Of a stretch of DNA of 64,000 bases, positions 10,283 to 63,430 are shown one piece after another; the first letter of the stretch is position 1; each line of letters starts with the position of its first letter. The position numbers and the translations under genes are program-made. Source of the DNA: a virus; IMG/VR virus record IMGVR_UViG_3300017971_002536, positions 62,001 to 126,000 of that record. One strand, 5' to 3'. The notes under the pieces were generated by a model. The model made no database searches. It had not been told where the DNA came from and saw only the letters and a program-made list of their open reading frames with translations.

Positions 10283-10283
10283 A

Positions 10284-11125: not shown

Positions 11126-11132
11126 CTCGTTT

Positions 11133-11431: not shown

Positions 11432-11446
11432 TTTATTTCTCCTTTA

Positions 11447-11740: not shown

Positions 11741-11769
11741 TTTTATTTCCTCTTTTTTATAGTTTATTT

Positions 11770-12063: not shown

Positions 12064-12096
12064 TTTATTCTCCTTTGGTTTCTCTCTCAATTACAA

Positions 12097-12129: not shown

Positions 12130-12156
12130 CTGTTTTCTGGTTTTTTTTCAAAAAAA

Positions 12157-12183
12157 AACCCACTCCAAAAAATGAAGTGGGTT
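12157..12183 (-). terminator. Terminator after tail sheath gene
   Basis: On the minus strand, AACCCACT pairs with AGTGGGTT around an A/T-rich loop and is followed by a run of eight T. It is 24 bases downstream of the sheath stop. Confidence 0.85.
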
Positions 12184-12206
12184 TTAGTAAAAATATCAAC
12201 TAAATA

Positions 12207-14531: not shown

Positions 14532-14587
14532 TTAATTTCTCCTATTTGAATTAAAAATGTATTAGTTTCAGATTAAAATTTTACATA

Positions 14588-14597
14588 TATAAATATA
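14588..14597 (-). promoter_or_regulatory. Late-type promoter of sheath gene
   Basis: TATATTTATA on the minus strand, preceded at 18 bases by ACGTTTCGG and ending in TTTCAT. ACGTTTCGGAAATTTC is the same 16-base upstream block as at 14975-15002. It lies 57 bases before the sheath ATG. Confidence 0.7.
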
Positions 14598-14640
14598 ATG
14601 AAATTTCCGAAACGTTCAGGTCACCTTGTTTATTATAGGT

Positions 14641-14934
14641 TTAACCTTGATTTTGTTCAGAAGGAGTAAATAAACCTGTATCCACATTTAATGAACCTAT
14701 ACCATATTTTTTATTTAATTCGTCTAAATGTGTTCTTTCAGTTTGTTTGATCTCGTCATAACGTTCTAATAATTTGTCTTTCGCCTCAATTAAATTGTCA
14801 AGGGCGTCACGGACATCATTTATTTGAAGTTCAACTTGTCCTACCTGAACTACGATTTCTTGATAATTGTTACGTAAATCTTTGACCTTTGTAACTTCCT
14901 CTTCTGAAACCTTGATAGCTTGTTTTTCTGCCAT
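14641..14934 (-). CDS. Small coiled-coil protein
   Basis: A 97-residue protein. Residues about 10-78 form a continuous heptad-type helix rich in E, K, L, V and Q (VTKVKDLRNNYQEIVVQVGQ, LIEAKDKLLERYDEIKQTER). A short KYGIGSLNVDTGLF tail follows. It has its own late promoter (14975) and lies directly upstream of the sheath. Coiled-coil proteins of this size are frequent beside tail genes of large phages; I know no assigned role. A structural linker or assembly chaperone is possible. Confidence 0.7.
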   Translation of the reverse strand: MAEKQAIKVSEEEVTKVKDLRNNYQEIVVQVGQVELQINDVRDALDNLIEAKDKLLERYDEIKQTERTHLDELNKKYGIGSLNVDTGLFTPSEQNQG

Positions 14935-14974
14935 TTTTCTTTCTCCTTGTTTTTGTTAAATGTTAAAATGTATA

Positions 14975-14984
14975 TATAAATATA
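14975..14984 (-). promoter_or_regulatory. Late-type promoter of coiled-coil gene
   Basis: TATATTTATA on the minus strand, preceded by ACGTTTCGGAAATTTCTA (18 bases). It lies 40 bases upstream of the ATG at 14934 and downstream of the adhesin region. Confidence 0.7.
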
Positions 14985-15007
14985 TAGAAATTTCCGAAAC
15001 GTGCTAA

Positions 15008-20065: not shown

Positions 20066-21757
20066 TTATACACCTACTATCTTTTTCACCACTACATTCT
20101 TTTGTGTTTCTTTTTCTTCCTTGTCAAATCCACGTATAACTACAACTATTCTCTTGAGTGATAATAAATACGGCCCACGTTTGCCCGACCCTTGTAATAC
20201 AAACTTTACACGAACCGTGTTTCCCCTCGTGTTGAATCTTCTTATTCCCTCTTTACGCCAATCATATGCTTGATAATGATTTCCACCATCATTACTTACA
20301 AATACCTTGAAATATGTGTCGTCACCGGGTTCAAATACCATATTTGCTATTTTATTTATTTGTATTGATGAAATATTCGTTTCATCTTCAAGTTGAAAAT
20401 CACCAAAAACAATATTTCCTTGTGATACAAGTTCCAAAAAATTAGGAAAATTATTTATATCATACGATATAAACGCACTACCATCACCATCATAACCACC
20501 TAATACCCAATATTCAGTTCCCTCAGATGCTTGAACTTTATGATATGGATGTGGACACCAAGTATATGTAAAATTAAGAGCATTTGGCCCCGTTGTCGGT
20601 TGTGTCGTCGTTGTTCCTTTTTTTCTATATCCATACGCATTTATAGGCCCAACTCCTACCCAATTTTGATTCTCTACATCTATCCAACCAAAATTTCTAC
20701 CTGTCCAAGTTGCGTAATTTCTAACTATAGGCATATCACTTCCATATACCGGATGTTTTTTAGCATGTATACCCTCAATAAACAATAATACTGTTCTCCA
20801 TCTAGCATCAGTATTGTACCTTGTACCAGCTTCTAACAAAGTTGGAACATTCGTTGTTCCTTCAATACAAGCACTTATATCTACTTTACAAAATCTTCCA
20901 TAATTGGTTGATATTATCATAATATTTGGATCGTCGTTATCAGGCACCCATAAATGTGTATATGTATCATTTCCGCCCATTATACTATCAGTTCTTACTT
21001 GAAATGCGGACGCGGTTACTTCAGATGGATCGGCTTCCGCATAAGAAGCTGTAGCACTTGGATTTACTACCACTCTCAACATAGCATCCGCCCTTGACAC
21101 ATAATAAAGTCGATCATGTTCTGCATCATACCAACAATGACCATATCTATGACTATTTATTTGATTTTTTACCGTTAAATTTTCAGCAGTTTCACTTGGA
21201 ATGTGCCAACGAAATACCGTTGTAGTTCCTTTATCATCAGGACATATATAAAGATAGTCGCCAACTACCTCTAATCCACTATGATATGTATATCCAACTT
21301 CATCACTCGGCAAACCATTTCCTGCTTCCGTTAAAACCTCAACCGATAAACTCGATGTATCACTATAATCTATTCGTCCTATATTATCATATACCCAATT
21401 TCCAAAATAAAAATGTTTCCTTACAGGATCTACAGCACAACTTGGATAATACGCATAACCGTTCATCGGTGTACTATTATTGTAAACAACAGTAAAAGTA
21501 CCATCGTCATTCAATCGTCTTATCCCTACTCCATCAGAATATCCAGCACAAAATATAAGATTTCCATCAACTTTTACACTATCTTGTGACAATCCACGAT
21601 CACCACTCCCTGCTCCACCGCGGCTTGTCCAATTATTATCCTTTATATTCCACTCTAAACCTATATGTGTTCGCCAAACAAACTCAAAATATACATCTTG
21701 TTTACTTACAACTTGTTCATTTTGTCCTAACTCAAAACTTTTTATCTTTACTGCCAT
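20066..21757 (-). CDS. Putative beta-propeller fibre protein (paralogue 1)
   Basis: A 563-residue protein, paralogous to the next gene. Shared blocks are AVDPVRKHFYFGNWVYDNIG and DYSDTSS, then YHSGLEVVGDYLYICPDDKG, RYGHCWYDAEHDRLYY, and near the end GNIVFGDFQLEDETNISSI and FKVFVSNDGGNHYQAYDW. A basic C-terminal tail (KEEKETQKNVVVKKIVGV) may mediate attachment. It reads as a propeller followed by a beta-sandwich, an architecture used for carbohydrate or protein binding. No catalytic signature seen. Confidence 0.7.
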   Translation of the reverse strand: MAVKIKSFELGQNEQVVSKQDVYFEFVWRTHIGLEWNIKDNNWTSRGGAGSGDRGLSQDSVKVDGNLIFCAGYSDGVGIRRLNDDGTFTVVYNNSTPMNGYAYYPSCAVDPVRKHFYFGNWVYDNIGRIDYSDTSSLSVEVLTEAGNGLPSDEVGYTYHSGLEVVGDYLYICPDDKGTTTVFRWHIPSETAENLTVKNQINSHRYGHCWYDAEHDRLYYVSRADAMLRVVVNPSATASYAEADPSEVTASAFQVRTDSIMGGNDTYTHLWVPDNDDPNIMIISTNYGRFCKVDISACIEGTTNVPTLLEAGTRYNTDARWRTVLLFIEGIHAKKHPVYGSDMPIVRNYATWTGRNFGWIDVENQNWVGVGPINAYGYRKKGTTTTQPTTGPNALNFTYTWCPHPYHKVQASEGTEYWVLGGYDGDGSAFISYDINNFPNFLELVSQGNIVFGDFQLEDETNISSIQINKIANMVFEPGDDTYFKVFVSNDGGNHYQAYDWRKEGIRRFNTRGNTVRVKFVLQGSGKRGPYLLSLKRIVVVIRGFDKEEKETQKNVVVKKIVGV

Positions 21758-21760
21758 AAC

Positions 21761-22051
21761 TTACTCTCCAAGAACCGGTCTACTTCCAGATATTCCTTCT
21801 ATCGCATCTTCTAACGCATTTATTGTATTTTGATGTACAAATTCAAATTCATTGAAATTATTTTCAATCGCGTCAGCTATATCAATTTCATATCCCTTTC
21901 CATCCATCCAATCTTGTAAATTTTGAATCCTTACCTGAAGAGCAACATCAAGTCCTCTGTCGCCACGAAAACGTTCCCTCTCACTTCGTTGAATCTTCAC
22001 TTCATCATTTATTCTATTCCATTCTTCCATAAGTAAATCTAAATCACTCAT
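21761..22051 (-). CDS. Small helical protein between fibre genes
   Basis: A 96-residue acidic helical protein (DLLMEEWNRINDEVKIQRSE, later IENNFNEFEFVHQNTINALE). AGGAG lies before its ATG. Its place between two long fibre genes is where tail-fibre assembly chaperones are often encoded, but no sequence feature proves this. It is not similar to T4 gp57A or gp38 as far as I can see. Confidence 0.65.
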   Translation of the reverse strand: MSDLDLLMEEWNRINDEVKIQRSERERFRGDRGLDVALQVRIQNLQDWMDGKGYEIDIADAIENNFNEFEFVHQNTINALEDAIEGISGSRPVLGE

Positions 22052-22063
22052 ATAAAACTCCTA

Positions 22064-24928
22064 TTATGTATTTGTTACAACATATACCCAAAATTGATGA
22101 TATTTCTCTAAATCGGCCTCCGGGATCGCATACATATATGAATTTGCACGACCACTATAAATTTCTGTAGCAGCAGCTTCATCTAAATCTCCCTCAACAA
22201 GTTCAGCATCTTTCTTTATCGTTACACTCGCAAATCGTCTATCATTTGGTACATCGTATTGTATATAATAATGTTCAGTCATATTCACAACCTCAAGATT
22301 TGTTACATCGGCTACTTGACCGGATGAAGATGCTGCGGCAGTAGCAGCGGTTGATCTTTTACCTGCTTTCAACGCATATACTCTATAATCTAAACTTCCA
22401 CTTATTGTAAATGAGTTGTCTATTATAGTCATTGGATCAGTTATACTATCTTCTTTTACTAAACCAACTAAACTATACGCATTATGAGCTCCACCTTCCG
22501 CTCTCCAAACTTCGTATTCATTTATTCCAAGTGTCGCTGAAGCAGAAAAGGACACACTAAATGTATCAGTATTATCAGTTAATGTTACACTTGTTGGAGC
22601 ATTTGGAACACTTTGAGATATGTCGCCATAAATAGCTGATCCAGAAAGAAATCCATTTGTGATAAGATTACCTGTACTTGCATTCAATGACATACAAGGT
22701 ACAGTACCATACGACCAAATAAAACCTCTATCAGTTCCACTGGACATTATATTAGCTATATAATAACTTGATACTTCACCATGCATATATGTAGCACCAG
22801 TTTGCATATGAATTCCATATACGGTCGGTGGATTACTCCACAAACCTAAACCATATGTTGTATTAGCACCAATTTGAATTATTCCGGCAACCGAAAGTGC
22901 ACGATTAGGAACAGTATTTATACCTACATTTCCACCAAATGTCGCACCATTACTTGCTGAGAAAACGGACGCACTTACCATATTCCATACGTGTAATGAA
23001 TGACTATTTGCTAATTGTAAGTTTGGATCACTCGTTCCTATTCCTACATAACTTCCGGTAACTCTAAGTGTGTAGTCGCCAAATGTTCCCATTGTTACGG
23101 TGTCCTCGGCTTCAACGGATAAAATAGGAATACCACTTATATCATTTACCTCAAATAATGTACCAACAAATGAATCTCTTACTTGGAATAATGAACCTTG
23201 ACTACCCTCTATATTCAATACGGTCGAACCACTTGAATAAACATGAAGTGGATATGAAGGCACAGTTCCTATTCCAACTCCATAACTATGTGACGCATAT
23301 AACATACTTGATGAAATAAATCCGGTTGCTCCATCAATACGTAATGTTTCGCCTTGTGTCGTATATACTCTCGTGTCAACGTCACCACTCGTAGAATCAC
23401 CAAGAATAACTGAGTCGCCATTGTTTATCTGCATTAGATTTGATCCTGCAGAATAAAAATGATGTTGTGTAGATGTCATTCTATGATATGTGTTTGTCGG
23501 CCCATCCCAAGCACGAAGATATTCATTTACAAGTATGTCGCCATTTACACTTAAATGATATGTTCCTCGTGTAGTATTGATCCCAACTTTACCTTCAACC
23601 TCTAACGATGAAGCTGATACAACAGAACCAGACAACCATATTTGTGATTTTCTAAATCGAGCTATTTCAGTATTATCGGAATAAATATTAACTTCATGAC
23701 CATTTCCAGTATCACCGGCTCTTATTTGTAACTCACCATTTTGTGCTATTGATTGAATAGAATGAAATACAGAATTATTTGATTCAAAATAAATAGCATT
23801 TGTATCGGTGGTATCTTGACTTTCTATTCTTAGTGCAGTTGAACCCGTCGAATACACATGAAGTTGTGAAACGGGCGTTGCTGTTCCTATTCCTAATCTT
23901 CCTGCTCTATCTAATATCATTCGATACGCAGCACCTGCAACGGCCCATGAAATTTTATTCCATGTTCCACTACCCATTTGTAATTCATCTGTAGCAAGAC
24001 CGGTCGCTACCCACAATGTTGTTCCACTTGCATTCCTTATCCTATATCCTTGTGTATTGTCAACAACTATATATCCATCACGCACTTCTAATTTATCAAT
24101 AGGATTGTCCGTTCCAATACCTACATTACCATTCGCATCTATTCTCATTCGTTCATTTGTATGTCCTGCAGTATAAAATCGTATCACTCCACTGGCATGG
24201 CGGGCTAATATAGATAATCCACCAGAAAGATTTTCCTCAGTCGCTAAAATTCCACCATCTTGTACATACGCACCAGCCGTAGTATATCCAGTTCCAAGAG
24301 TTATTATTCTACATGATGAATCAATAGAACCAGCATTTGATGTAATAAGTTGTGAACTTACAGTTGTTCCAGCATTAGGATTGTTCACCATCAGTTGTGT
24401 ATTACCATCTTGACTTTTTTCTACGTGAACAAACATAGACGGATTCGTTGTACCAATACCTACATTACCATTTCCACTAACAAACATATATTCGTCACCA
24501 ATTTGTAATAAATCGTCAGCTCCACTTCCACTTATATTGAGTTTTACCGTTCCTGGCGAAGAATTTCCTATTCCTACATAACTACCGGTTACAAATAATG
24601 TATATTTATTATATGTTCCTGCTATAACAGTGTCTGTGGCTTGAACTTCTAATATTGGAAGTCCAGATTGATCGTTGACCTCAAATAAAGTTCCTACAAA
24701 TGAATCTTGTACAGAAAATAATGTTCCTTGACTTCCCTCTACATTGAATATAGTTGATCCGCTTGAATATATGTGTAAAGGATATGACGGATTTGTACCA
24801 ATACCAACGTCACCACTTCCACTTATTATCAGGTCGCCACTACTCGCGGAAATGATTGAATCTATTTCACCATCAGTCCTAAACCTTATCGATCCCGATC
24901 TCGGGACTATAAATACGTCTGTCGCCAC
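22064..24928 (-). CDS. Tail fibre protein with VGIGT repeats and FN3-like end
   Basis: A 954-residue protein starting at GTG behind GGAGAAATTAA. It carries two long near-copies of one module: PSYPLHIYSSGSTIFNVEG with SFVGTLFEVNDQSGLPILEV (about residues 45-115), and again PSYPLHVYSSGSTVLNIEG with SFVGTLFEVNDISGIPIL (about 560-630). Several VGIGTxxP units lie between. The last about 190 residues differ: VPNAPTSVTLTDNTDTFSVS followed by EYEVWRAEGG and YRVYALKAGKR. This is the pattern of a fibronectin type III domain, plus a second small domain. Fibre shaft with a C-terminal binding head is the likely role. Confidence 0.8.
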   Translation of the reverse strand: MATDVFIVPRSGSIRFRTDGEIDSIISASSGDLIISGSGDVGIGTNPSYPLHIYSSGSTIFNVEGSQGTLFSVQDSFVGTLFEVNDQSGLPILEVQATDTVIAGTYNKYTLFVTGSYVGIGNSSPGTVKLNISGSGADDLLQIGDEYMFVSGNGNVGIGTTNPSMFVHVEKSQDGNTQLMVNNPNAGTTVSSQLITSNAGSIDSSCRIITLGTGYTTAGAYVQDGGILATEENLSGGLSILARHASGVIRFYTAGHTNERMRIDANGNVGIGTDNPIDKLEVRDGYIVVDNTQGYRIRNASGTTLWVATGLATDELQMGSGTWNKISWAVAGAAYRMILDRAGRLGIGTATPVSQLHVYSTGSTALRIESQDTTDTNAIYFESNNSVFHSIQSIAQNGELQIRAGDTGNGHEVNIYSDNTEIARFRKSQIWLSGSVVSASSLEVEGKVGINTTRGTYHLSVNGDILVNEYLRAWDGPTNTYHRMTSTQHHFYSAGSNLMQINNGDSVILGDSTSGDVDTRVYTTQGETLRIDGATGFISSSMLYASHSYGVGIGTVPSYPLHVYSSGSTVLNIEGSQGSLFQVRDSFVGTLFEVNDISGIPILSVEAEDTVTMGTFGDYTLRVTGSYVGIGTSDPNLQLANSHSLHVWNMVSASVFSASNGATFGGNVGINTVPNRALSVAGIIQIGANTTYGLGLWSNPPTVYGIHMQTGATYMHGEVSSYYIANIMSSGTDRGFIWSYGTVPCMSLNASTGNLITNGFLSGSAIYGDISQSVPNAPTSVTLTDNTDTFSVSFSASATLGINEYEVWRAEGGAHNAYSLVGLVKEDSITDPMTIIDNSFTISGSLDYRVYALKAGKRSTAATAAASSSGQVADVTNLEVVNMTEHYYIQYDVPNDRRFASVTIKKDAELVEGDLDEAAATEIYSGRANSYMYAIPEADLEKYHQFWVYVVTNT

Positions 24929-52257: not shown

Positions 52258-53895
52258 TTAAACTTGATCAATATGACCCACATATATCTTCCCGTAAAAT
52301 TCTGGCCTTACGATTTTCTTCGCGTAACGAGTCATAACGCCTCTGCGAGGAGTAAAATTATCAGGATCATAAATCAATGGAGTCATAATAAGTGGAATGT
52401 AAGGTGAATACACAGCACCAGTTTCCAAGAAATTACTTCCTCTAAATCCGACCAAAGCGATATTTTCAGTAAGGTAAGGATTTTTGTAAACGGTGAAACG
52501 TGAATTCAACATACCAACTTTTTGTACACCCATTGCGAATGATTGTTGGTTTCCATCAGTATCAGCAGCATATCCAGGAATAGATTCAATAACGGTAGCA
52601 ACGTCAGGACTAACAACGATGAAGTTAGCTCCACCGCGAAGTGTTAATTGATGAATTTTGTTACTTACTTTTTGAATCTTATTTCCAAGAGTTTGATACC
52701 ATTCATTCTTTGTACCAGTATGAGAACCAGCATCATAGAAATTGGTTTTACCATTGTTAATTTCATATCCAGGAAGAGCTGACCAGTAATCAGTAGTAAT
52801 AGCGTTAGAAATAAGCATGTCAAGGATTTCTAAGTCAATTTCCATTCCAATATATTCACTCAAGAGAGCAGTTAACTCAGCTTCAGCGTCAATAGAGTGA
52901 TATGCGTTCAAGTCTTGAGCCAATTCAGGAGTCCAAATAGCTTTCAACTTACGAGTTTTGGCGACGATAGGTTCTTGAGCAACCGACAAGTCGATTTCAG
53001 GAATATCAAGTTTAACAAGACTTCCAGACTCAGAAGTATCTTCGAAGTCACCACGAGTATCAGCAGTAGGTTGTTTGTGATAACGAATATCATATTCACT
53101 TGCTGAGAAGTTAGCGAATGCAGCAGCACTACCAGAAACGATCCATCTTACTGTAGCACCAACTTGAGTTGTGTAAGCAGACAAATAAGATTGAATACCA
53201 CTACCACTAACAGAAAAAGCACGAACACCTTCGACATCAAGGTCAGATAAGTTACCAGTGTTATATGAAAGAGCGAAAAGTGTACCGGCAGCCATAGAAG
53301 CACTAATATGACCATCGTCAAAACCAACATCAGCCCATGTGACAGAAGCAGTAGCGAAAGCGTCACCACTTGGAGTAGTATCAAGATCAGCAGTTCCGCC
53401 ATATCCATAATCATTAATTGAGTATCCGAAACGTCCACCACCGTAAAGACCACCAGTAGCTTCATCAGTCGTTCCAGGAGTTTTACCACCACCAGTTCCA
53501 CCAAAAACAGATTGATTTTGGGTAAAACCAGGTTGTGTACCACTACCATACTTAAAGTCAATGTAAAATACAAGACCGGATGGTAAGTTCATAGGTTGAA
53601 TCGATACGAATTCTTTAGCGGCAACTTCACCGAAAATTCTACGTACCAAAGGAAGAGCGACACCAGACCATTGTTCAGCACCACTACCACCAGTTTGAGA
53701 AACTTCGTCCAATAATTGGCGAGCTTGATTCTCTAATAGAATAGCCATTCCATAAATTTCATGTTCTTCGTTCATACCATCAAGAAGACCTGTTGGCTCC
53801 CATTTTTTCACGAGTCCACGAGTTTGCTCTAAAAGAGCATCATATGGATTTTGACCTTCCATTAATTTGTTTAAATTAAATAAGGTTTTACTCAT
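52258..53895 (-). CDS. 23: Major capsid protein (T4 gp23-like)
   Basis: A 545-residue protein. Key segments are KKWEPTGLLDG near residue 31, AILLENQARQLLDE around 51-64, GVALPLVRRIFGEVAAKEFV and SIQPMNLPSGLVFYI, the last being the gp23 hallmark (VQPMNxPTG in T4). Near the C-terminus VGHIDQV. The N-terminal about 64 residues are probably removed by the prohead protease: LLDE64 matches the (L/I)xE cleavage rule, and the site lies shortly before the conserved core, as in T4. GGAG ribosome site. It follows the scaffold gene by 30 bases. A strong terminator follows. Confidence 0.95.
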   Translation of the reverse strand: MSKTLFNLNKLMEGQNPYDALLEQTRGLVKKWEPTGLLDGMNEEHEIYGMAILLENQARQLLDEVSQTGGSGAEQWSGVALPLVRRIFGEVAAKEFVSIQPMNLPSGLVFYIDFKYGSGTQPGFTQNQSVFGGTGGGKTPGTTDEATGGLYGGGRFGYSINDYGYGGTADLDTTPSGDAFATASVTWADVGFDDGHISASMAAGTLFALSYNTGNLSDLDVEGVRAFSVSGSGIQSYLSAYTTQVGATVRWIVSGSAAAFANFSASEYDIRYHKQPTADTRGDFEDTSESGSLVKLDIPEIDLSVAQEPIVAKTRKLKAIWTPELAQDLNAYHSIDAEAELTALLSEYIGMEIDLEILDMLISNAITTDYWSALPGYEINNGKTNFYDAGSHTGTKNEWYQTLGNKIQKVSNKIHQLTLRGGANFIVVSPDVATVIESIPGYAADTDGNQQSFAMGVQKVGMLNSRFTVYKNPYLTENIALVGFRGSNFLETGAVYSPYIPLIMTPLIYDPDNFTPRRGVMTRYAKKIVRPEFYGKIYVGHIDQV

Positions 53896-53925: not shown

Positions 53926-55047
53926 TTACTTTTTGTTGTGATTAATAAGTTTGTGAATGCGGCTTTTCACTTCATTATCTTCATTGACGATTTGTTCTTT
54001 ATCAACTTTCTTTTCAGAATCAGTTGATTGAACAACAGAAGAAGCACCTTCAACTAAACGTTGTGTTCTTTTGTTTTCTTTCTTTTCGCCAACCGCAAGG
54101 TTTTCCATAAGTGTAGCAAAAATAAGTTTTACTTCACGTACATTCTTAGCACGATCAAAATTCTCAATGACTTTAACCTTGGCTTTGTTGTCAAGATTAT
54201 AACCACGAAATACTTTATTCGTGAAAAGAAGTTTTGCATTCAAAATGTTCGTTTCGTTAATGACTTTACGTTGTTTTTTGATTGCAGATACAGCTTCACC
54301 AAGTTGAGCTTTAAGTTCAGCTATTTGATTTTCAAGAGCAGCAATTTGTCCAGGATAATCGATTTCATCAGCTTCATCAACAAGACCTTCTAAGTCTAAT
54401 TCTTCATCGTCCTCAACTTCATCTTCAACTTCAGGTTCTACTTCAACTTCAGGTTCTACATCAACTTCAGGTTCCGCTTCAACTTCGGCTTCAGGTTCAA
54501 CTTCAATGTCAAGTTCTTCATCTTCGTCGTCGTCTTCTGTTACTTCCATTTCCATTTCATCTTCCGGTTCCATTTCCATTTCTACCTCGTCGTCAACTTC
54601 AACTTCATCGTCGGCTTCTTCTTCTAATTCACTAATAACGGAATCAAGATCAAAATCCTCGTCCAACTCAACATCTTCAGTCAATCCAGAATCTTCTTGA
54701 GCTTTTTCACCAGCTTTAACTTCAGTTTCACCACCAGGATCTTCAGTAGTTTCTTCAGAAGAGGCTTTTGAAGGCTCTTTGTTATCACCTTGTCCAATAT
54801 CAGACGAATCTGCAACTTCCTCTAAAGATTCATCTTCAGTGAGACCGGAATCTTCTTGAGCCATTTCAAATTCTTCCTCTAATTCGACATCTTCCTCAAC
54901 TTCATCCATCTCGGATTGAATTTTTTTGGTGATGACAGAATGAATTTGCGGTTCAAACGCTTCTTCAAGAGCAGCTTTAGCTTGTGCTACAGCCATTTCT
55001 CTCATAGCTTTTGCGTCTGCAATCGCTTCTTTAATTAAATTACTCAT
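53926..55047 (-). CDS. 22: Prohead scaffold/core protein (T4 gp22-like)
   Basis: A 373-residue protein from ATG 55047, where GGAGAAACGTA fits; the frame from 55083 lacks a site. The start (SNLIKEAIADAKAMREMAVA, then QAKAALEEAF) is the pattern of gp22 in cyanophage-type T4 relatives. The middle is an extreme acidic low-complexity run of E, D and V (residues about 45-235, e.g. EVEAEPEVDVEPEVEVEPEV). The last part is a helix-rich basic region (LKAQLGEAVSAIKKQRKVIN). The acidic part is longer than in T4. gp22 forms the core on which the capsid assembles and is degraded by gp21. A long structured leader precedes it. Confidence 0.85.
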   Translation of the reverse strand: MSNLIKEAIADAKAMREMAVAQAKAALEEAFEPQIHSVITKKIQSEMDEVEEDVELEEEFEMAQEDSGLTEDESLEEVADSSDIGQGDNKEPSKASSEETTEDPGGETEVKAGEKAQEDSGLTEDVELDEDFDLDSVISELEEEADDEVEVDDEVEMEMEPEDEMEMEVTEDDDEDEELDIEVEPEAEVEAEPEVDVEPEVEVEPEVEDEVEDDEELDLEGLVDEADEIDYPGQIAALENQIAELKAQLGEAVSAIKKQRKVINETNILNAKLLFTNKVFRGYNLDNKAKVKVIENFDRAKNVREVKLIFATLMENLAVGEKKENKRTQRLVEGASSVVQSTDSEKKVDKEQIVNEDNEVKSRIHKLINHNKK

Positions 55048-55170
55048 TACGTTTCTCCAATATTTTAATATGGAATTTAACACTATTCGGTGAGTGTCAA
55101 TGACATTATAATAGTTACTACGTGACGTTATATAAGATAACGTATTTAGGTAGGTCTGATTTTTTCAAAT
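55048..55170 (-). promoter_or_regulatory. Structured 5' leader of scaffold-capsid operon
   Basis: Between the promoter at 55175 and the scaffold ATG lie about 125 bases, far longer than other leaders here. The minus strand can form CGTTAT-CTTAT-ATAACG and ACACT-CACCGAAT-AGTGT hairpins and a short GTCATTGAC stem. The leader may stabilise the mRNA or control its translation. No known riboswitch class is recognised. Confidence 0.4.
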
Positions 55171-55866: not shown

Positions 55867-56169
55867 TTATTTTTTTAATCCTCGTGCTAATTCACGATAA
55901 AATTTTGCTATTTTTTGAGCAGCCATAATGTCAAGAGACGCAAAAGCATCATGATAATCACTACTTTTAGGCTCCCTACTCGGCAACGCAGCAATTAATT
56001 TTTCTTTCATTTCATCAGTATCATTTTGATCTAATAAATCAGTTACTGATACTATATCGTCAGCTATTCTTAATAAATAACTACTCACCACTCCAGCTAC
56101 TCTATCAACTTTATCTTCCGTTATTAGAGTATTCTCATTTAAAATCTTGTTCCATTGTTCTTTTTTCAT
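55867..56169 (-). CDS. Small protein with class A leader
   Basis: A 100-residue protein beginning MKKEQWNKILNENTLITED, a textbook class A leader with candidate cut after LNE (12) or ITE (18). The mature part is helical: VDRVAGVVSSYLLRIADDIV, KEKLIAALPSREPKSSDYHD, AFASLDIMAAQKIAKFYREL. The ribosome site and first codons (56158-56183) are identical to those of the gene at 10025-10282. No family recognised. Likely packaged in the head if the leader acts as a targeting peptide. Confidence 0.65.
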   Translation of the reverse strand: MKKEQWNKILNENTLITEDKVDRVAGVVSSYLLRIADDIVSVTDLLDQNDTDEMKEKLIAALPSREPKSSDYHDAFASLDIMAAQKIAKFYRELARGLKK

Positions 56170-56170
56170 A

Positions 56171-57040
56171 TTATTTCACCTTGTTATATTCTCTCTCTTG
56201 AACAGAATCACCTAATACATAAGTGTTAAACAATACTTCTAATCCCGTTCCAGTTTTAAACTGAGCATTTAAGAACTTGTCTTTTTTGACAAACTTTTCC
56301 ATTTTTTTCTTATCAAATTTAGCAGCTTCACTCAATCGACCAATGACTTTTGTCAAAGAGTTTGTTGGTACTTCCACTTCAAACAAACCAACATCCCCAC
56401 CACCAACAGTCGCCATATTATCATTGATTTCATAAATCTTTACACTACCATTTCCTCTTGTTATTTCAGTATTAACTTTCTTAACATATCTTGGAGTTGG
56501 ATTGTGTTTTCTAATGACATTCATATTGACTTTCGCCCGATCACCTTGATATAAAGTTGTGTCGGCGTTTGCGGTAACAGGTGGAGCTTCTTCAGCAATC
56601 GAAGCAATCTCAAAATACCTGTTGAGAATATGACCCATATCTTCATATAAGGACGCCATACGATCTTGATGTTCTTGGACGGCAGACGCTACCTTACCAA
56701 ATTCACCGGAAAAGGTTTTCAATTCTTTCATATTTCGTTGAATAGTTACACCGTCAAACCAATCGTTAGCACCTTCGATTGTGTATTGTTCGGCGAACGT
56801 AGCTATTTCACTTAACGATTTCGCTAAATCGACAAGATTTCCTTCACGATAAATCATTTTACCAAGTTTATTATATTCCTTAATAGAATTCATTATACGT
56901 TCTTTTACATCAGCAGGAATTTCTTGTTTTTGTTCGAAATAGTTTTCCTCAATTAATTCTTTTCTCATTTCTTCTCTTGCTTCAAAATCTTTTTGTTCTT
57001 CTTTAGAAAAGAAATGATCTACTAATTTCTTTTTCGCCAT
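56171..57040 (-). CDS. Unknown helical protein in head operon
   Basis: A 289-residue protein. The N-terminal half is helical and charged (DHFFSKEEQKDFEAREEMRK, VKERIMNSIKEYNKLGKMIY). The middle (QEHQDRMASLYEDMGHILNR) is followed by VTANADTTLYQGDRAKVNMN and strands, then EVEVPTNSLTKVIGRLSEAA and a basic end. It lacks the short leader. It may be a scaffold or core partner because of its position between the protease and the scaffold, but I recognise no family. GGGAG ribosome site. Confidence 0.65.
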   Translation of the reverse strand: MAKKKLVDHFFSKEEQKDFEAREEMRKELIEENYFEQKQEIPADVKERIMNSIKEYNKLGKMIYREGNLVDLAKSLSEIATFAEQYTIEGANDWFDGVTIQRNMKELKTFSGEFGKVASAVQEHQDRMASLYEDMGHILNRYFEIASIAEEAPPVTANADTTLYQGDRAKVNMNVIRKHNPTPRYVKKVNTEITRGNGSVKIYEINDNMATVGGGDVGLFEVEVPTNSLTKVIGRLSEAAKFDKKKMEKFVKKDKFLNAQFKTGTGLEVLFNTYVLGDSVQEREYNKVK

Positions 57041-57083
57041 TTTATTACTCCCTTTATTTATTTACATTTTTTTCTTGACTTTT

Positions 57084-58895
57084 TCACTTTTTTTTCGTAA
57101 ATTTCTTGATTTTCCCTTTTAAAATATTAACTAATTTATCTATATCTTCCTCAGTTTTTATCTTTTTCTTTGTTCCATATAATAACTCGGCATCAGATCG
57201 TCCTCTCTTATCAGTACCAACAACCGCTATTTCTACCTCAACAATATTACCATATATTGATACATCCAACACAGTTTTCCAATCATCCGATTGTATAGAT
57301 GTCCCTTTACCAGGAACTAAAGTTAAATTCCAACCTCTTTTTCCATAACGTCTAATTTTATTGTCTAATGTCTTTAGTTTTTTATCTAAAAGAGTACCTA
57401 TTCTTCTTTCACTTAATTCATTTTCTTCTGTTACTAATGTATTCTCTTTTAACTTATTTGGTTTAAACTGTATTCGTTGTCTCATTTTTCCTGGATATGG
57501 TTCTAATTCAAGTGTATAACTACCATCATTGTTTTTATGTAACCACACACCATCATGTCCAGTCCCCAAACCAAAACCAGCTTTATTTAATTTAGCAACC
57601 AACTTACCAGCATTCTTTAATGTCAATTCACCTTTAGATACCACTACTTCACCATCACCATTATCAGCAACATATTTAGACGCTTCATTCATCATTATTT
57701 CTTTCACTACACTACGAATAACTTCTTTTATTTCGCCCATCATCATTTCATCATGGCGAAAATCTATGTACGCTTCCATACTTGGTTGATCATCAATTTC
57801 ACCGGATTGAATGTACATCAATGTATCTTTAGCTAATTCCTTCATTTCCTTAGCGTTATATTTATACTTTTTCTTAGCATACTTGAGTCCATCTTTTACC
57901 ATATCCTTGTCAGATTTGATTTCATTCACTCCCTCTCTGCGGGCTTTCTCTCCAGCAGATGCTTGAGCAAAATGTTTGTATTGTTTTTTAGTCATTCCAC
58001 CTTTTTTACCACCTTTTTCTCCAGCACTGGCTTTAGCAAAATGTTTGTATTGTTTTGGAGTCATTTTTTCGTCAAGTATGTCGCCTTCTTTTAACTCGGA
58101 TAAATCGGGCGCGTATATCATTTGAAACTTTGATCCAGGATTTTTTATCCGGTCTGCTTTCATCCTCGTCAAACAAGTATTCTTGGACGCAATACATTGT
58201 ACCACTCCATCACGAGTATATCCGTATTCAGCGTCAGTTGGTAAATCAGTTACAGTATTTTCCTCAACACTCTCTTTTATAGTTTTCAACATATCAACAG
58301 GAATTACCATTTCACTACCCTTCATATGTCCAGTCAATATTTCAACATCGGCTAATTTGTCAGTCGAATAATTCATAATTCTTCCAGTGTCGCCTTTCAA
58401 ACTTGTAAAGTTCTTAAAAAATTGTTTTGGAATATATTTCGATGTTACTTTATATATTTTTACTTTATCTCCGATACCTTCATTCATTGTACTCTCCTTT
58501 ACAAGTAAATCTGCATTGTTGATATATCCTTTTTCTTTTCCAACTTTTACTATAGCGTACCCGCTCGCTGGAGCTTCGTCACTTACTTTACCCATTTTAC
58601 CTTTATGTTTTCCATACATTACTTTAACTTTCGATCCAACAGGTATTTCACTATCAGGATATTCCTTAGAATAGTTTATCCAACCTTCATTTACACTCTC
58701 AGGAACTTCCTCAGGTAATCCCTTATGTTTTGTCTTAGCAAACTTTTCAGTATCCTTGTCTTTCATTGTTTTAGCAATACCTTTGATTTTATCCTGCAAC
58801 GCCTTAGGAAGTTTACCCATTTCTAACTCACCCTTTTCATAGGCATGTACCATACCCATTAATCGTTGCTGCGATTTACTCACTGCTGGACACAT
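57084..58895 (-). CDS. Apparent internal polyprotein with DUF3008 and KOW-like domains
   Basis: A 603-residue protein made of separate modules joined by candidate protease sites. Residues 1-66 are a DUF3008 domain (SKSQQRLMGMVHAYEKGELE, KTKHKGLPEEV). VNE70 is followed by a KOW-like barrel (VGSKVKVMYGKHKGKMGKV). MNE139 is followed by a second barrel. Residues about 279-320 hold two copies of 'MTxKQYKHFAxASAGEK'. VNE325 and MNE404 flank a helical part with an internal class B motif (EIKEVIRSVVKEIMMNEA). A beta part follows, and after KLKENTLVTE490 the last domain. Each site has the form x-N/T-E followed mostly by G or A. Processing by the gp21-like protease is inferred. Confidence 0.65.
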   Translation of the reverse strand: MCPAVSKSQQRLMGMVHAYEKGELEMGKLPKALQDKIKGIAKTMKDKDTEKFAKTKHKGLPEEVPESVNEGWINYSKEYPDSEIPVGSKVKVMYGKHKGKMGKVSDEAPASGYAIVKVGKEKGYINNADLLVKESTMNEGIGDKVKIYKVTSKYIPKQFFKNFTSLKGDTGRIMNYSTDKLADVEILTGHMKGSEMVIPVDMLKTIKESVEENTVTDLPTDAEYGYTRDGVVQCIASKNTCLTRMKADRIKNPGSKFQMIYAPDLSELKEGDILDEKMTPKQYKHFAKASAGEKGGKKGGMTKKQYKHFAQASAGEKARREGVNEIKSDKDMVKDGLKYAKKKYKYNAKEMKELAKDTLMYIQSGEIDDQPSMEAYIDFRHDEMMMGEIKEVIRSVVKEIMMNEASKYVADNGDGEVVVSKGELTLKNAGKLVAKLNKAGFGLGTGHDGVWLHKNNDGSYTLELEPYPGKMRQRIQFKPNKLKENTLVTEENELSERRIGTLLDKKLKTLDNKIRRYGKRGWNLTLVPGKGTSIQSDDWKTVLDVSIYGNIVEVEIAVVGTDKRGRSDAELLYGTKKKIKTEEDIDKLVNILKGKIKKFTKKK

Positions 58896-58908
58896 ATTTT
58901 ATCTCCTA

Positions 58909-59469
58909 TTATCTTACACTATTTACAAGTTTATACGCTTGTTTCAACGCTTTAGCTGCGTGTTTAGCACTTTGAAATACTTCGTAATCTTCACCAATGT
59001 TTACCAACTCATTCAATCCATCTTCAACATCGGCTAATAGATTTTTGTAGTATTTGTAATCAGGTTTTTCTTTCTCTTGTAATGGCTGTCCTTGTTCATC
59101 AAGAAATTTTTCGCCTTTTTCATTAAATTGTCCAGGAAGTCCTTTAAACTCAAAATTATCTTCCCTTTTTGGCGACAATCCTACAACTTGACCCACTGGT
59201 AATAAACTTGAAATCATTACCATTCCTTCATCTAACTTTTCTTTTTTAGATGTTTTGTTTTCACCTACATTTTCTTTTAAAGGTTGTATTACATCAATAG
59301 GTACAACAATCGTAGCACCTTTCCATTCACCATCTAACATTTTAATGGTTACAGAATCTTCAGGTTGAACTACTCCAGAATCACCTACAAATTTTTTAAA
59401 AGTGCTTCCCGAAATCTTCCCTTTGGCGCGATGAATTTTTACTTTATCACCGGGTTTAAATTTAGCCAT
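58909..59469 (-). CDS. KOW-like protein with shared KLDEG module
   Basis: A 186-residue protein. Residues 1-65 form a KOW/SH3-like barrel (KFKPGDKVKIHRAKGKISGS, VTIKMLDGEWKGATIVVPID), similar to the second barrel of the polyprotein. Residues about 77-130 (KLDEGMVMISSLLPVG, DNFEFKGLPGQFNEKGEKFL) are a module repeated in the next gene. KLDE80 is a candidate cut. The end is a helical hairpin (EDGLNELVNIGEDYEVFQSA). Function unknown; packaged or head-internal by inference. Confidence 0.6.
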   Translation of the reverse strand: MAKFKPGDKVKIHRAKGKISGSTFKKFVGDSGVVQPEDSVTIKMLDGEWKGATIVVPIDVIQPLKENVGENKTSKKEKLDEGMVMISSLLPVGQVVGLSPKREDNFEFKGLPGQFNEKGEKFLDEQGQPLQEKEKPDYKYYKNLLADVEDGLNELVNIGEDYEVFQSAKHAAKALKQAYKLVNSVR

Positions 59470-59482
59470 TTAATTTCTCCAT

Positions 59483-60172
59483 TTATTTAAAAGGTTGTAT
59501 CTTTCCTAATTTTGACATTTCTTTTTCAAATGCTTTAAAAGCATCTTCAACTGTTTTTTCAATTTTCTTCGGATCGGCTTCTTTCATTTTGATAGTCCAC
59601 GTATGATCATTACCAAAACCAAAACTAACTTGATAATAATCCCAAAGTTTTGTTATTCGAACAGGAAAATATGTATTTATTATATTTTTTGGACGAGGGC
59701 TTAAATATTCAGTATCCCTTTTTTCGTTTATAGTTTCTTCCTCAATCTTATTACCCATTTCATCTAATACCTTTACGCCTTCTTCGTTGAATTGACCAGG
59801 TAATCCCTTAAACTCAAAATTGTCTTTTCGTTCTGGCATTAAACCAATGACACCACCAACAGGTAAAAGGCTCGACATCATTACCATACCTTCATCAAGT
59901 TTTTGCTTACTTTCACTTACAACTTTTTTCGCAGCAGCAAGCACATCTTTTTGATTTGTTTCAATCTCCTTTACAGCAGCTACAAAGAATTTTTGAGCGA
60001 CACCCTTTTCACTCTTAGCTTTTTTCTTCGCTTCCTCATACATATCAAGAAACATCTGTGACGCTTCTTTTTTGTCTTTAGCTTTCTCAATACTCTTTGC
60101 ACGAATTGTCCAATCTTTAGTCAATTTTGCTACAGTAGCAATATCTTTAAAGAATCCTTCATCTAATTTCAT
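59483..60172 (-). CDS. Helical protein with shared KLDEG module
   Basis: A 229-residue protein beginning MKLDEGFFKDIATVAKLTKD. Residues 1-90 are a lysine-rich helical part (KAKDKKEASQMFLDMYEEAK). Residues about 91-150 are the shared module (KLDEGMVMMSSLLPVG, DNFEFKGLPGQFNEEGVKVL), and the rest is a small alpha/beta domain (YYQVSFGFGNDHTWTIKMKE). It and the gene before it share this module though the rest differs, so the module was exchanged or duplicated. Candidate cuts lie after KLDE (5 and 94). Confidence 0.6.
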   Translation of the reverse strand: MKLDEGFFKDIATVAKLTKDWTIRAKSIEKAKDKKEASQMFLDMYEEAKKKAKSEKGVAQKFFVAAVKEIETNQKDVLAAAKKVVSESKQKLDEGMVMMSSLLPVGGVIGLMPERKDNFEFKGLPGQFNEEGVKVLDEMGNKIEEETINEKRDTEYLSPRPKNIINTYFPVRITKLWDYYQVSFGFGNDHTWTIKMKEADPKKIEKTVEDAFKAFEKEMSKLGKIQPFK

Positions 60173-60185
60173 TTTATATCTCCTA

Positions 60186-60491
60186 TTATAAATTTTCTAT
60201 TTTTAACGCGGCTTTCCGTAGCGCCATTGTGATTTCTTCTAATAATATTTTATGAGCTTCATCAAAATTCTCTGGGCTAACATATTTACGAATATGATCT
60301 TGACCCTTTGTAATACCACTTAAACCAGCTTTATGATTACCTATAAGAGCAACAACAATCGCGTCAGCCAACCAAGCAAGTGCTCGTTTGTCTATTACTT
60401 CATTTACTTCATCTTTCATTTCTTGAAGGCGATAATCTCTCCATTTGAAACTCATATCGGTATATGTTTTTGCTTTCTTTTTATCTCTCAT
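60186..60491 (-). CDS. Small helical protein, unknown
   Basis: A 101-residue basic/helical protein. An N-terminal stretch (RDKKKAKTYTDMSFKWRDYR) is followed by MKDEVNEVIDKRALAWLADA, a hydrophobic IVVALIGNHKAGLSG segment and a C-terminal helix EEITMALRKAALKIENL. VNE near residue 31 resembles other candidate protease sites. AAGGGG ribosome site. No family recognised. Confidence 0.6.
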   Translation of the reverse strand: MRDKKKAKTYTDMSFKWRDYRLQEMKDEVNEVIDKRALAWLADAIVVALIGNHKAGLSGITKGQDHIRKYVSPENFDEAHKILLEEITMALRKAALKIENL

Positions 60492-60495
60492 TGAA

Positions 60496-60711
60496 TTACC
60501 CCTTATATTTTTTCTTCAATACATAAGCAACAAAAATTAACCATAACGGAACGATCAACGCGAACGGCCATCCAAATACGGCAGCAAGAAGTCCGCCACC
60601 CGCAATCAATCCACACAACATTACAATCGTTTTCCAATGTTTGAATGAATATTCTTGAGCATCCTTGATCCACTCATTCCACTTTACCAAAAATTTTTCC
60701 CAAAAATTCAT
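60496..60711 (-). CDS. Small membrane protein with two transmembrane segments
   Basis: A 71-residue protein. A charged aromatic N-terminus (NFWEKFLVKWNEWIKDAQEY) is followed by hydrophobic segments at about residues 28-48 (TIVMLCGLIAGGGLLAAVFG) and 49-66 (FALIVPLWLIFVAYVL), then a basic tail KKKYKG. This is the build of a small holin- or anchor-type inner-membrane protein with both ends on the same side. It lies beside the protease gene rather than a lysis gene. In T4 prohead assembly starts on the inner membrane, so an assembly anchor is as possible as a holin. Confidence 0.65.
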   Translation of the reverse strand: MNFWEKFLVKWNEWIKDAQEYSFKHWKTIVMLCGLIAGGGLLAAVFGWPFALIVPLWLIFVAYVLKKKYKG

Positions 60712-60713
60712 TT

Positions 60714-61322
60714 TTATTCTCCCATATCTATAAGAATATCAGTTACGATTTCTTGTACTTTACAATATTTGTTTACACATACTTGACCATACTTATCAAC
60801 ACTTTCTTGAATAGGTTTCATAAACGCACCGTGTGTCGATGGATTACTTACCATATCAAAAGCAATCAACTCAAAATCGTCTTGGACGACCGCACCATGT
60901 TCAGCAGATTCTTGAACCGATCCCAACCCACGAGAAGAAATACCTACAAGAATACCACCTTTCAATAATTCTTGAAGAATTTTTCCTGCAGGAGTATTCA
61001 ACACTTCTATTGTACCGATTAAGTCTTTACCTTCCCAATGCATTTCAACTATATTATGACTTACATTAGCTAAGTTTACGACAGAAGAATCGGGATGATC
61101 TAACTCACCCAATGCTCGTTTTTCGCCAATCAACTGTTCATATTTTTTCGCTTCCCTGGCGAGAATAGGTTGTGGATATACACGACCATTTTGATTTTGT
61201 GCTTCTGCTCGTTGTAATATACCCTTGATCAAAATCTTACCATTGTGTACTTTCATTGATTCTCGTATTACACCACCCGCTATTTCTAAAGGCATATACT
61301 CCGCTAATATCTGCTTATTCAT
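60714..61322 (-). CDS. 21: Prohead protease (T4 gp21-like)
   Basis: A 202-residue protein. Recognisable motifs are QNQNGRVYPQPILAREAKKY near residue 43, the active-site His in GELDHPDSS (His75) and the Ser in GISSRGLGS (Ser129 or 130), then DDFELIAFDMVSNPSTHGAF. This is the gp21 serine protease fold. It cuts scaffold, major capsid and internal proteins after (L/I)xE sites during head maturation, and finally itself. It stands amid the genes whose leaders carry such sites. GGAG ribosome site. The T4 gene is about 212 residues, a close match. Confidence 0.9.
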   Translation of the reverse strand: MNKQILAEYMPLEIAGGVIRESMKVHNGKILIKGILQRAEAQNQNGRVYPQPILAREAKKYEQLIGEKRALGELDHPDSSVVNLANVSHNIVEMHWEGKDLIGTIEVLNTPAGKILQELLKGGILVGISSRGLGSVQESAEHGAVVQDDFELIAFDMVSNPSTHGAFMKPIQESVDKYGQVCVNKYCKVQEIVTDILIDMGE

Positions 61323-61338
61323 TCTTTATTCTCCACTA

Positions 61339-61995
61339 TTATTTTATAGGTTTTTTCAAATTTTTCAAGGCTTCTTGTTTCGCTTTAATATCGTTTTCTA
61401 AATCTTTTATTGTAGAATTTAAATCACTTTTATTTGATTCAAGAGCAGTATACCAACTACCTTTTTTACCAATTTTTTCAAGAGATTCATTCCGTGTACG
61501 AGCATATACAGCAAACAAAGGAGTTCCCATACTATTGCCTTCCATATCACTTTGATATATCAAAAATAATTTTTCAGGAACTACTTTTGGATCAATCTCA
61601 ACTAATTCATCATCAGAAAAACTATATCTATAAACATTTCCTTTCTTTCCATTAAATAAATATACATCTCCGTAATCTTTATTCCTTTTCGCTTGAGAAA
61701 ATAAAGATTTGATTTTATTTCCCGCAAATTCTACATACCAATCGGCTAATACACCAACTTCTTTCGGCTTTCTTGTTCTTGGATTACCATAATTTTTCCA
61801 ATTATCCATAGTCCAATCTGATACATCCAAGTTAGGAGTATTCTTTAGAGCATCCAAAAATTTATCTCTATTTTTCAAAGTAAGTTTGACGGCTTTCTTA
61901 CCATATTTCTTAAAAAACGCACCACCAACATTTTCATTCAATAAAAAATTTTGAACTTCCTCTTTAATTATTTCATTCAATCTTGAACGTTTCAT
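61339..61995 (-). CDS. Protein with class B leader, unknown mature domain
   Basis: A 218-residue protein beginning MKRSRLNEIIKEEVQNFLLN, with candidate cut after LNE (about 21). The mature part has a basic helix (FFKKYGKKAVKLTLKNRDKF), a central alpha/beta domain with DYGDVYLFNGKKGNVYRYSF and VVPEKLFLIYQSD, and a coiled-coil end (LNSTIKDLENDIKAKQEALK). It may be a nuclease- or toxin-like fold, but I cannot support any name. Directly upstream of the protease gene. AAGGAG site. Confidence 0.65.
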   Translation of the reverse strand: MKRSRLNEIIKEEVQNFLLNENVGGAFFKKYGKKAVKLTLKNRDKFLDALKNTPNLDVSDWTMDNWKNYGNPRTRKPKEVGVLADWYVEFAGNKIKSLFSQAKRNKDYGDVYLFNGKKGNVYRYSFSDDELVEIDPKVVPEKLFLIYQSDMEGNSMGTPLFAVYARTRNESLEKIGKKGSWYTALESNKSDLNSTIKDLENDIKAKQEALKNLKKPIK

Positions 61996-62004
61996 TTTTT
62001 CTCC

Positions 62005-62382
62005 TTATACCCACATTTGACGTTTCTTAAATAAATCAAAAAAGACGGCAGCAATCTCGGCTCGTATTATATCTTTAATCTCTGCAAAATCTTTTCTACT
62101 CAATGCTTCATCTAATCTTTGTTGTTGTAATTGTCTTTCCTCATAAAGAATAAGTAAATTGTTGTCTAACTCCGCTACCGTCTTATTTTTATCATACCAT
62201 GTAAAACCATGCACCTCTTTTTCTTCGTCAGTATATTTTACTTTCATTCTTTTAAGTTGTTTAAGAGCTTCTGCTTTGTCTTTTACTCTAATAAATACTT
62301 TACCTTGAGAAGGCAATCCCTTAAACTCTTTTATCATTTCTTCACGAATAATTTCTTTTATTCTATCTTTTGAAATTTTCAT
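62005..62382 (-). CDS. Small protein with class B leader
   Basis: A 125-residue protein beginning MKISKDRIKEIIREEMIKEF. The middle (KGLPSQGKVFIRVKDKAEAL) is followed by a strand-helix part. The end LSRKDFAEIKDIIRAEIAAV followed by FFDLFKKR is a motif I have seen at the C-terminus of many small phage proteins of unknown role. AAGGTAA ribosome site. Function unknown. Confidence 0.65.
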   Translation of the reverse strand: MKISKDRIKEIIREEMIKEFKGLPSQGKVFIRVKDKAEALKQLKRMKVKYTDEEKEVHGFTWYDKNKTVAELDNNLLILYEERQLQQQRLDEALSRKDFAEIKDIIRAEIAAVFFDLFKKRQMWV

Positions 62383-62386
62383 ATCT

Positions 62387-62950
62387 TTACCTTATCTTTT
62401 TGGCGGCCGCATTCATTTTACCTGAATCCAACACTTGTTGTATCAAATGATATGTATCTAATGGATTAGCATATCCAAGTTTTTTATGTTCCGTACTTAA
62501 AAAATCTAATATGTCTTTCCTTACTTGATTTAGTGTTTCGCCAGTGAAATGTAATTCATTGACCCTCTCACCACCTAAATTATCCTCACCAGGTTCCTCA
62601 GTCAAATCTATTAAATCCCACGACATAGGCCAGTTGTATTTTATGTTCTTTATCTTTTCACCACTTAATCGGGCTGCTTCATCTCGTTTCATTGTCGTTG
62701 TCGGTGTGTGAATGTTTCCACCTTTGTAATACTCGCCCGTTGTCTTTCGTTGTAATAAATAATATTTATTCTTATCAACATCAATACTATTTGGAGTCAT
62801 TTGTTGCCCAACTGGCTTTATCGCTTCTTGTCTAATTTTAGGATTAAGAAGTTCTTTCATTTTTATAGGATTTTCATTCAATCTATAATATGTTGAACGA
62901 TCATACGCATCCTCTTTTCCTAACATTTTATACCAAAGTTTTTTATCCAT
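62387..62950 (-). CDS. Protein with class A-like leader
   Basis: A 187-residue protein beginning MDKKLWYKMLGKEDAYD, a variant of the class A leader without the ENTL part, then YYRLNENPIK. The rest contains DVDKNKYYLLQRKTTGEYYK, IKYNWPMSWDLIDLTEEPG and LNQVRKDILDFLSTEHKKLG. NE and VNE sites occur at about residues 26 and 131. Unrecognised family. It starts 6 bases after the stop of the next class A gene. Confidence 0.6.
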   Translation of the reverse strand: MDKKLWYKMLGKEDAYDRSTYYRLNENPIKMKELLNPKIRQEAIKPVGQQMTPNSIDVDKNKYYLLQRKTTGEYYKGGNIHTPTTTMKRDEAARLSGEKIKNIKYNWPMSWDLIDLTEEPGEDNLGGERVNELHFTGETLNQVRKDILDFLSTEHKKLGYANPLDTYHLIQQVLDSGKMNAAAKKIR

Positions 62951-62956
62951 TTCGTT

Positions 62957-63211
62957 TTATCCCTTTTGAGCATCCATTATACGAGCCCTTACCCATTCTT
63001 GTAATTCTCTAAGCATTAACAACTTGATCATTTTATGATCATATGGTACATTCACTCTTTTTTTGATAAAATCCATTTGTTTCATTTCAGCTTTAACCGC
63101 AGCATTTATCACTTTATTTAGAACTTCTTTAGCAGCTTTCGCATCATGATTTTTATCTTCACTAACTAAAGTGTTTTCATTTAATATTTTGTTCCAAGTT
63201 TTTTTATCCAT
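62957..63211 (-). CDS. Small protein with class A leader
   Basis: An 84-residue protein beginning MDKKTWNKILNENTLVSED, with candidate cuts after LNE (12) or VSE (18). The mature part is a basic helical bundle (AAKEVLNKVINAAVKAEMKQ, then DFIKKRVNVPYDHKMIKLLM). Its first 15 residues equal those of the neighbour at 63221-63430. Function unknown. AAGGAAG ribosome site. Confidence 0.65.
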   Translation of the reverse strand: MDKKTWNKILNENTLVSEDKNHDAKAAKEVLNKVINAAVKAEMKQMDFIKKRVNVPYDHKMIKLLMLRELQEWVRARIMDAQKG

Positions 63212-63220
63212 GATTCTTCC

Positions 63221-63430
63221 TTAAAAAGTAATTTCAATTTTCTTAGGCTTATTTTTCATTTTTTTTATTAACGCAACTAACTTATCATATAATTTTTGAT
63301 CGTGATCGTGTTTTTTATCAGATGTATTATTAAAAATAATAACTGTACCTTGATAAGACGCAACAAAATCATTCCCACCTTCATTTAAAGTATTTTCATT
63401 TAAAATTTTATTCCAAGTTTTCTTATCCAT
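63221..63430 (-). CDS. Very small protein with class A leader
   Basis: A 69-residue protein beginning MDKKTWNKILNENTLNEGGN; candidate cut after LNE (12) or LNE (17, before GG). The mature part has FVASYQGTVIIFNN and a basic His/Lys-rich end (KKHDHDQKLYDKLVALIKKM). It overlaps the stop of the next gene by one base. Function unknown. Confidence 0.65.
   Translation of the reverse strand: MDKKTWNKILNENTLNEGGNDFVASYQGTVIIFNNTSDKKHDHDQKLYDKLVALIKKMKNKPKKIEITF

Follow-up and report, generated by a model that had tools for sequence, protein, structure and literature searches.

Why should several genes of one virus begin with nearly the same short peptide and then continue into proteins unrelated to each other? 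The question is raised by a 64-kb stretch (the window) of the 168,383-base virus record IMGVR_UViG_3300017971_002536 (G000), which is an uncultivated T4-like virus infecting bacteria; coordinates are those of the window unless G000 is stated. Six window genes, all on the minus strand, carry what we call the class A leader, with the consensus start M-D-K-K-x-W-N-K-I-L... We consider it quite likely that this leader and others in the same genome are capsid-targeting sequences (CTS), which take varied cargo into the prohead and are then cut off by a gp21-type protease.

A common leader on unrelated proteins

An earlier note, made from the sequence alone, had described at least six genes with variants of one leader and unrelated bodies, and the six that it listed were all found where it had placed them, with an N-terminal likeness far above that of shuffled controls. 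Gene pairs with unrelated bodies were compared across the whole record over 30 residues, counting scores of at least 50, and this gave 12 pairs at the N-terminus, one at the C-terminus, none internally and none in any of three shuffles. Class A accounts for eight of the 12 N-terminal pairs, and another three are Rossmann/epimerase sugar genes. Among 22 class A genes the identity is 59% at residues 2-10 and falls to 6.8% at residues 31-60. The class A leader is kept by selection on the peptide and not on the DNA, since matching residues have the same codon in 56% of pairs, not above the 60% expected from codon usage. For the 153-amino acid (aa) gene we prefer the ATG chosen in the earlier note, as a GGGAGAG ribosome site precedes 10966; the start of the longer reading frame (10993) falls within a promoter-like motif.

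The leaders end at a predicted protease site. Of 25 class A proteins, 22 have a [LIV]xE motif with its P1 Glu at residues 15-27, compared to 14% of equally long body windows (p 5e-16). Immediately past the terminal Glu of the leaders, the information per column drops from about 1.5-2 bits to 0.1-0.4. The earlier note had located the cut at the first LNE (E12), and here it has to be corrected, because the residue-12 LNE is often missing and the site that recurs regularly is E17/E18 (in one window gene, E26). This gene, encoding 187 aa, had been counted among those with an LNE leader; it has no LNE at residue 12, and its [LIV]xE is found at residue 26. The predicted cut site of the major capsid protein, located from where T4 has its own, reads [LIV]xE/[AV] (a slash marks the cut) in 20 of 20 aligned rows.

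Leader classes and their spread among phages

The single family proposed at first does exist, but this genome has at least three leader classes, of which class A is one. Class B follows the pattern M-K-x-S-E-L-R-Q-I-I-R-E-E-x3-4-[LIV]xE (MKKSELRQIIREE...LNE) and class C the pattern M-[I]-K-L-K-K-L-[IL]-x-E (MIKLKKLIKE), both being found on further genes of the virus and of its relatives. In class B, 78 of 91 proteins have [LIV]xE no more than 9 residues after IIREE, against a null of 10% (p 1e-64), and the codon likeness is 0.62 compared to the 0.49 predicted from codon usage.

We scanned viral contigs with the leader DNA patterns alone, and prokaryote genomes also with the class A pattern. 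The search of phage genomes by leader, as the earlier note had suggested, was productive, retrieving 42 loci, 33 of which adjoin T4-type head or tail genes. Bacterial and archaeal genomes (85,000; 257 Gb) had four matches to the class A pattern, none of them a leader with the [LIV]xE end. When 20-residue leaders were compared to cultured phages by tblastn, there was no match; queries this short have little power. Some class B matches were N-termini of large terminases, in which the sequence continues into conserved terminase, and were excluded; the match at L134, without [LIV]xE end and without T4-type genes nearby, was treated as chance.

In the protease tree, class A appears in the group of the window virus, L013 and L015 and again in L112/L122, and class B is spread over several groups. 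Up to nine leader genes are present within one fetched locus, and the class B leader genes of four loci (L095, L099, L101, and L118) form runs of six to eight, often side by side, with short bodies that are all different. By capsid protein, the nearest cultured relatives are Microcystis phage Mel-JY01 and Flavobacterium phage immuto, with Rhodothermus phage RM378 more distant; T4-like cyanophages have the protease and capsid genes in common with the window virus, at lower identity. Immuto, too, encodes short proteins that share their start in pairs (NFNLRSFLTENKL, NFDLKKFLVENKL).

Protease, capsid protein and head gene order

As the earlier note had pointed out, a gp21-like protease gene lies in the same cluster, and we find it within the same tightly packed run as the leader genes of the gp20-gp22 interval, which follow each other with nearly no gaps. 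Its product can be aligned to T4 gp21 at GELxHP and SSRGLGS. The gene order (gp20, core/leader genes, gp21, core genes, gp22, and gp23) parallels the T4 order 20-67-68-21-22-23, giving a Straboviridae-like (T4-type) head module of portal, core, gp21, gp22, and gp23. The product of the putative gp22 gene is acidic, with 3.6 [LI]xE sites per 100 aa, and had no family match in PHROG or Pfam profile searches. The 125-aa protein encoded directly upstream of gp21 is conserved at its C-terminus, IIRAEIAAVFFDLFKKRQMW, and holds this position in many phages (30 loci with relatives); it is probably a core protein and not variable cargo, perhaps the counterpart of gp67/gp68. A helix of this protein is similar to the class B leader. 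In the major capsid protein, the first residues of the propeptide (NLNKLMEG; SLNNILNES in its kin) resemble class C leaders, a likeness of sequence hinting at a common core-docking signal.

A promoter-like motif, TATATATTTATAT(R)TG with the core TATTTATA, is located 2-97 nucleotides (nt) upstream of many virion genes, and in the window it appears near 9143, 10995, 14588, 14975, 24956, 39260, 49751, and 55175 (coding strand minus). Across G000 the coding strand has 45 matches to this core versus 19 to the T4 core TATAAATA, and the TATTTATA-type motif may be the late promoter of this phage group. The T4 late promoter TATAAATA was rejected as evidence of late expression, the coding strand not being enriched in it. 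The features considered are listed in Table 1. The first part of the genome (G000 1458-15550 and 21339-22334) also has clustered genes that resemble those for sugar-nucleotide epimerases, sulfotransferases, and glycosyltransferases, judged by their N-termini only.

Table 1. Leader genes and head genes of the window, in order of position.
Feature	Position	Strand	Leader or remark
Class A leader gene, 85 aa	10025..10282	-	leader MKKELWYKLLRENKLNE, residues 1-17
Class B-like leader gene, 74 aa	10284..10508	-	MKREELKEVIEAMIPE
Class A leader gene, 153 aa	10505..10966	-	leader MDNKQWRKFLTEGTLVVE, residues 1-18
Class C leader gene, 115 aa	45171..45518	-	MISLKKLLKE
Class C leader gene, 119 aa	45518..45877	-	MIKLKKLIKE
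Major capsid protein gp23	52258..53895	-	kin in T4-like phages; predicted gp21 site QLLDE/VSQTGG
gp22-type scaffold protein	53926..55083	-	between gp21 and gp23 as in T4; start likely internal
Class B leader gene, 107 aa	55243..55566	-	MKMERLKEIIKEEVNKFLNE/ATLYHG...
Class A leader gene, 100 aa	55867..56169	-	leader MKKEQWNKILNENTLITE, residues 1-18
603-aa multi-module protein, DUF3008 N-terminus	57084..58895	-	internal class B-like leader EIKEVIRSVVKEIMMNE and LVTE/LSE
gp21-type prohead protease	60714..61322	-	PHROG 207 E=3e-55; Pfam Peptidase_S77 E=5e-30
Class B leader gene, 218 aa	61339..61995	-	MKRSRLNEIIKEEVQNFLLNE
Class B-like N-terminus, 125 aa	62005..62382	-	conserved C-terminus; relatives at 30 loci
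Class A leader gene, 187 aa, swapped body	62387..62950	-	leader residues 1-26 = 62873-62950
Class A leader gene, 84 aa	62957..63211	-	leader MDKKTWNKILNENTLVSE, residues 1-18
Class A leader gene, 69 aa	63221..63430	-	leader MDKKTWNKILNENTLNE, residues 1-17

Leader exchange and internal leaders

That the bodies behind the leaders can be swapped, as had been supposed, is borne out by one exchange between the window and the locus of a close relative (L012, gp21 89% identical). In L012 a leader MDKKLWYKMLGKEDAY[DN]RS... heads an 82-aa protein, and the next gene carries a leader of its own, MPIKLKKIIDE. The 187-aa protein of the window combines both, residues 5-26 being 82% identical to the first L012 gene and residues 28-187 being 58% identical to the body of the next one, the own leader of this second body persisting without a site (IKMKELLNP). 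At the DNA level the similarity is 87.5% over 80 nt and stops at codon 26, which is the predicted cleavage codon. Since a class A leader is here joined to a body that has a class C-type leader in L012, the arrangement suggests that the two classes are interchangeable.

Leader-like segments are found within long proteins too. L012 has a segment like the internal leader of the 603-aa protein, EIKEVIRGVVREVLNE, ahead of a different module, with the other modules permuted, and in a 585-aa protein (G000 149424-151181) a class C-like leader is repeated before each of three parts. From their layout, both proteins could be head polyproteins split by gp21.

Bodies of the leader proteins

The 126 class A/B proteins across phages fall into 120 unrelated body clusters, with a median length of 95 aa. 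Two zeta-toxin-type kinases are present in this set, and in the window genome the proteins with class B/C-type starts include a Zeta_toxin-type kinase, a CCA/polyA-polymerase-like enzyme, an HD_4 protein, and an NT5C-type nucleotidase; nearly all other bodies had no recognizable domain in the family searches. A database search with the body of the 85-aa class A protein gave no convincing match, and the homologue search with two cargo bodies gave matches only in the window's own virus and its L012/L013 kin. The YHGT motif of the 107-aa class B protein had made it a candidate ADP-ribosyltransferase, which we rejected in view of no Pfam match and a single-sequence structure model (pLDDT 66) with no significant match in the PDB. 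Class A/B bodies contain 0.92 [LI]xE per 100 aa, versus a genome-wide 1.28 over all genes (p 7e-4); for scaffold/core-like proteins the value is 2.6-3.6. This is how the cargo would look if the body has to survive the removal of the leader.

Comparison with known systems

In T4, IPII and IPIII start with MKTYQEFIAE, and IPI starts with MKTFKEF and has a longer leader ending TITE/A, the site being read from the sequence; record X04567 gives residues -10 to -1 as a signal peptide. Cleavage by gp21 is reported after L/I-x-E, a 10-residue CTS suffices for packaging, and the CTS has been proposed as the route by which T4-like phages bring various proteins into the head (PMC9026906). The internal proteins of T-even phages have been described as diverse defence proteins with the CTS alone in common (PMC3012670).

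The genes described here resemble IPI, IPII, and IPIII (PMC9026906, PMC3012670) in having a common short leader on unrelated small proteins, an L/I-x-E end, and a gp21-type protease encoded by the same phage. They differ in that T4 has three internal proteins plus Alt, whereas here there are several leader classes and many genes in the gp20-gp22 interval. The residue-by-residue match to MKTYQEFxxE drawn in the earlier note does not stand up as homology: class A has a mean score of 11.8, compared to 10.7 +- 0.5 for shuffles, and the likeness is one of analogy. We therefore regard the leaders as probably working like the T4 CTS, without support for membership of class A by homology. Nearer T4 likenesses are IPI, with its longer leader and TITE/A site, and for class C the gp24 propeptide (MAKINELLRE), to which it has a mean score of 25.2 versus 13.5 +- 1.0 when shuffled; gp24, however, is a vertex capsid protein, whereas among the class C bodies are enzymes similar to CCA/polyA polymerases and to nucleotidases. 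The injected ADP-ribosyltransferase Alt of T4 is likewise a head-carried enzyme with a very short N-terminal propeptide cut by gp21 (PMC9026906), but the 107-aa YHGT protein of the window virus gave no match to the ADP-ribosyltransferase fold. The head ejection proteins of phiKZ and SPN3US, many of them ejected, are also cut after Glu, by a distant gp21 relative (PMC5694885, PMC9026906), but their propeptides are mostly long (>100 residues in several) and the phiKZ motif is S/A-x-E.

To call such a set undescribed, as had been done, is too strong, given the T-even set sharing only the CTS (PMC3012670) and the general CTS mechanism of T4-like phages (PMC9026906). Our literature search did not find the class B leader string, nor a description of such leaders beyond the T-even and phiKZ-like phages. 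The principle is already established by the T4 CTS, and what is new here are the different tags and more than 100 new candidate cargo proteins.

What the leaders may do

If the leaders are capsid-targeting sequences, the cargo would be made late in infection with a basic, amphipathic N-terminal leader of 10-26 residues, which would dock it onto the scaffold core of the forming prohead. The gp21-type protease would then cut past the Glu of the terminal [LIV]-x-E, leaving within the head a small mature protein that, like the internal proteins of T4, would most likely be injected together with the DNA. Recombination near the cleavage codon would join leaders to new bodies, so that the cargo set changes fast. 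We infer docking, cleavage, and packaging, with good support for loading and cleavage; injection and a host-directed function, by analogy with T4, are proposed with less confidence.

One alternative is that the tagged proteins are parts of the prohead core or scaffold, like T4 gp67 and gp68, and are degraded and lost instead of being delivered. They are encoded in the gp20-gp22 interval, where T4 has gp67 and gp68; the conserved 125-aa class B-like protein upstream of gp21 fits such a role, and neighbours of 603, 384, 229, and 186 aa are rich in cleavage sites. The variable class A/B bodies, however, are poor in [LI]xE sites, are almost never related to each other and are mostly missing from near relatives, unlike essential assembly parts, and for the leader proteins as a whole we regard this role as unlikely. 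Some leader genes are distant from the head cluster and close to tail genes (10025-10966 in the window; class B loci L102, L110, L121, L124, and L127), which is a point against capsid targeting and would suit a tag for another late structure (tail or baseplate) or for a host site, with an incidental [LIV]xE end. Yet the terminal site agrees with that of the major capsid protein, the similarity ends immediately past it, and the T4 ip and alt genes are scattered likewise, making a tag of this kind very improbable. Least credible of all is a common start that acts in translation or in the mRNA at the nucleotide level, or that was left by a recent duplication. It is short, always located at the start codon, and class B codons are more alike than predicted, but the bodies retain no residual similarity, leader-like segments recur within long proteins, and for class A a nucleotide-level element is rejected by the codon comparison, with residues conserved and codon identity not above codon usage.

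Capsid targeting remains our preferred explanation, and several other observations weigh against it. Class A is not demonstrably homologous to the T4 leader MKTYQEFIAE, and a clear site is missing from 3 of the 25 proteins of class A and from 13 of the 91 of class B. Since the site itself served to align the class B rows, P3 and P1 are not independent evidence there, and the site and body-cluster counts treat related contigs as independent. The sole clean swap depends on two near-identical contigs, and the window cargo is almost without family matches, the effector function being proposed by analogy.

Implications for T4-like phages

A broader picture, towards which we are tentative and lean slightly to the doubtful side, would be that of a broad uncultivated T4-like group with interchangeable leader classes, including polyprotein-internal ones, for modular loading of the head. 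Such phages would hold a very large pool of host-acting proteins (zeta-type kinases, CCA-type nucleotidyltransferases, and HD enzymes) and would gain cargo by recombination at the cleavage codon. The more than 100 unrelated candidates, nearly all of them without known function, are good places to seek anti-defence and host-takeover proteins. If capsid targeting is correct, a leader of about 20 residues could retrieve candidate capsid-delivered proteins from metagenomes by sequence alone, and natural leaders would be available for loading chosen proteins into phage heads. The T4 CTS principle would then hold also for phages that are distant from the T-evens and have leaders of another sequence.

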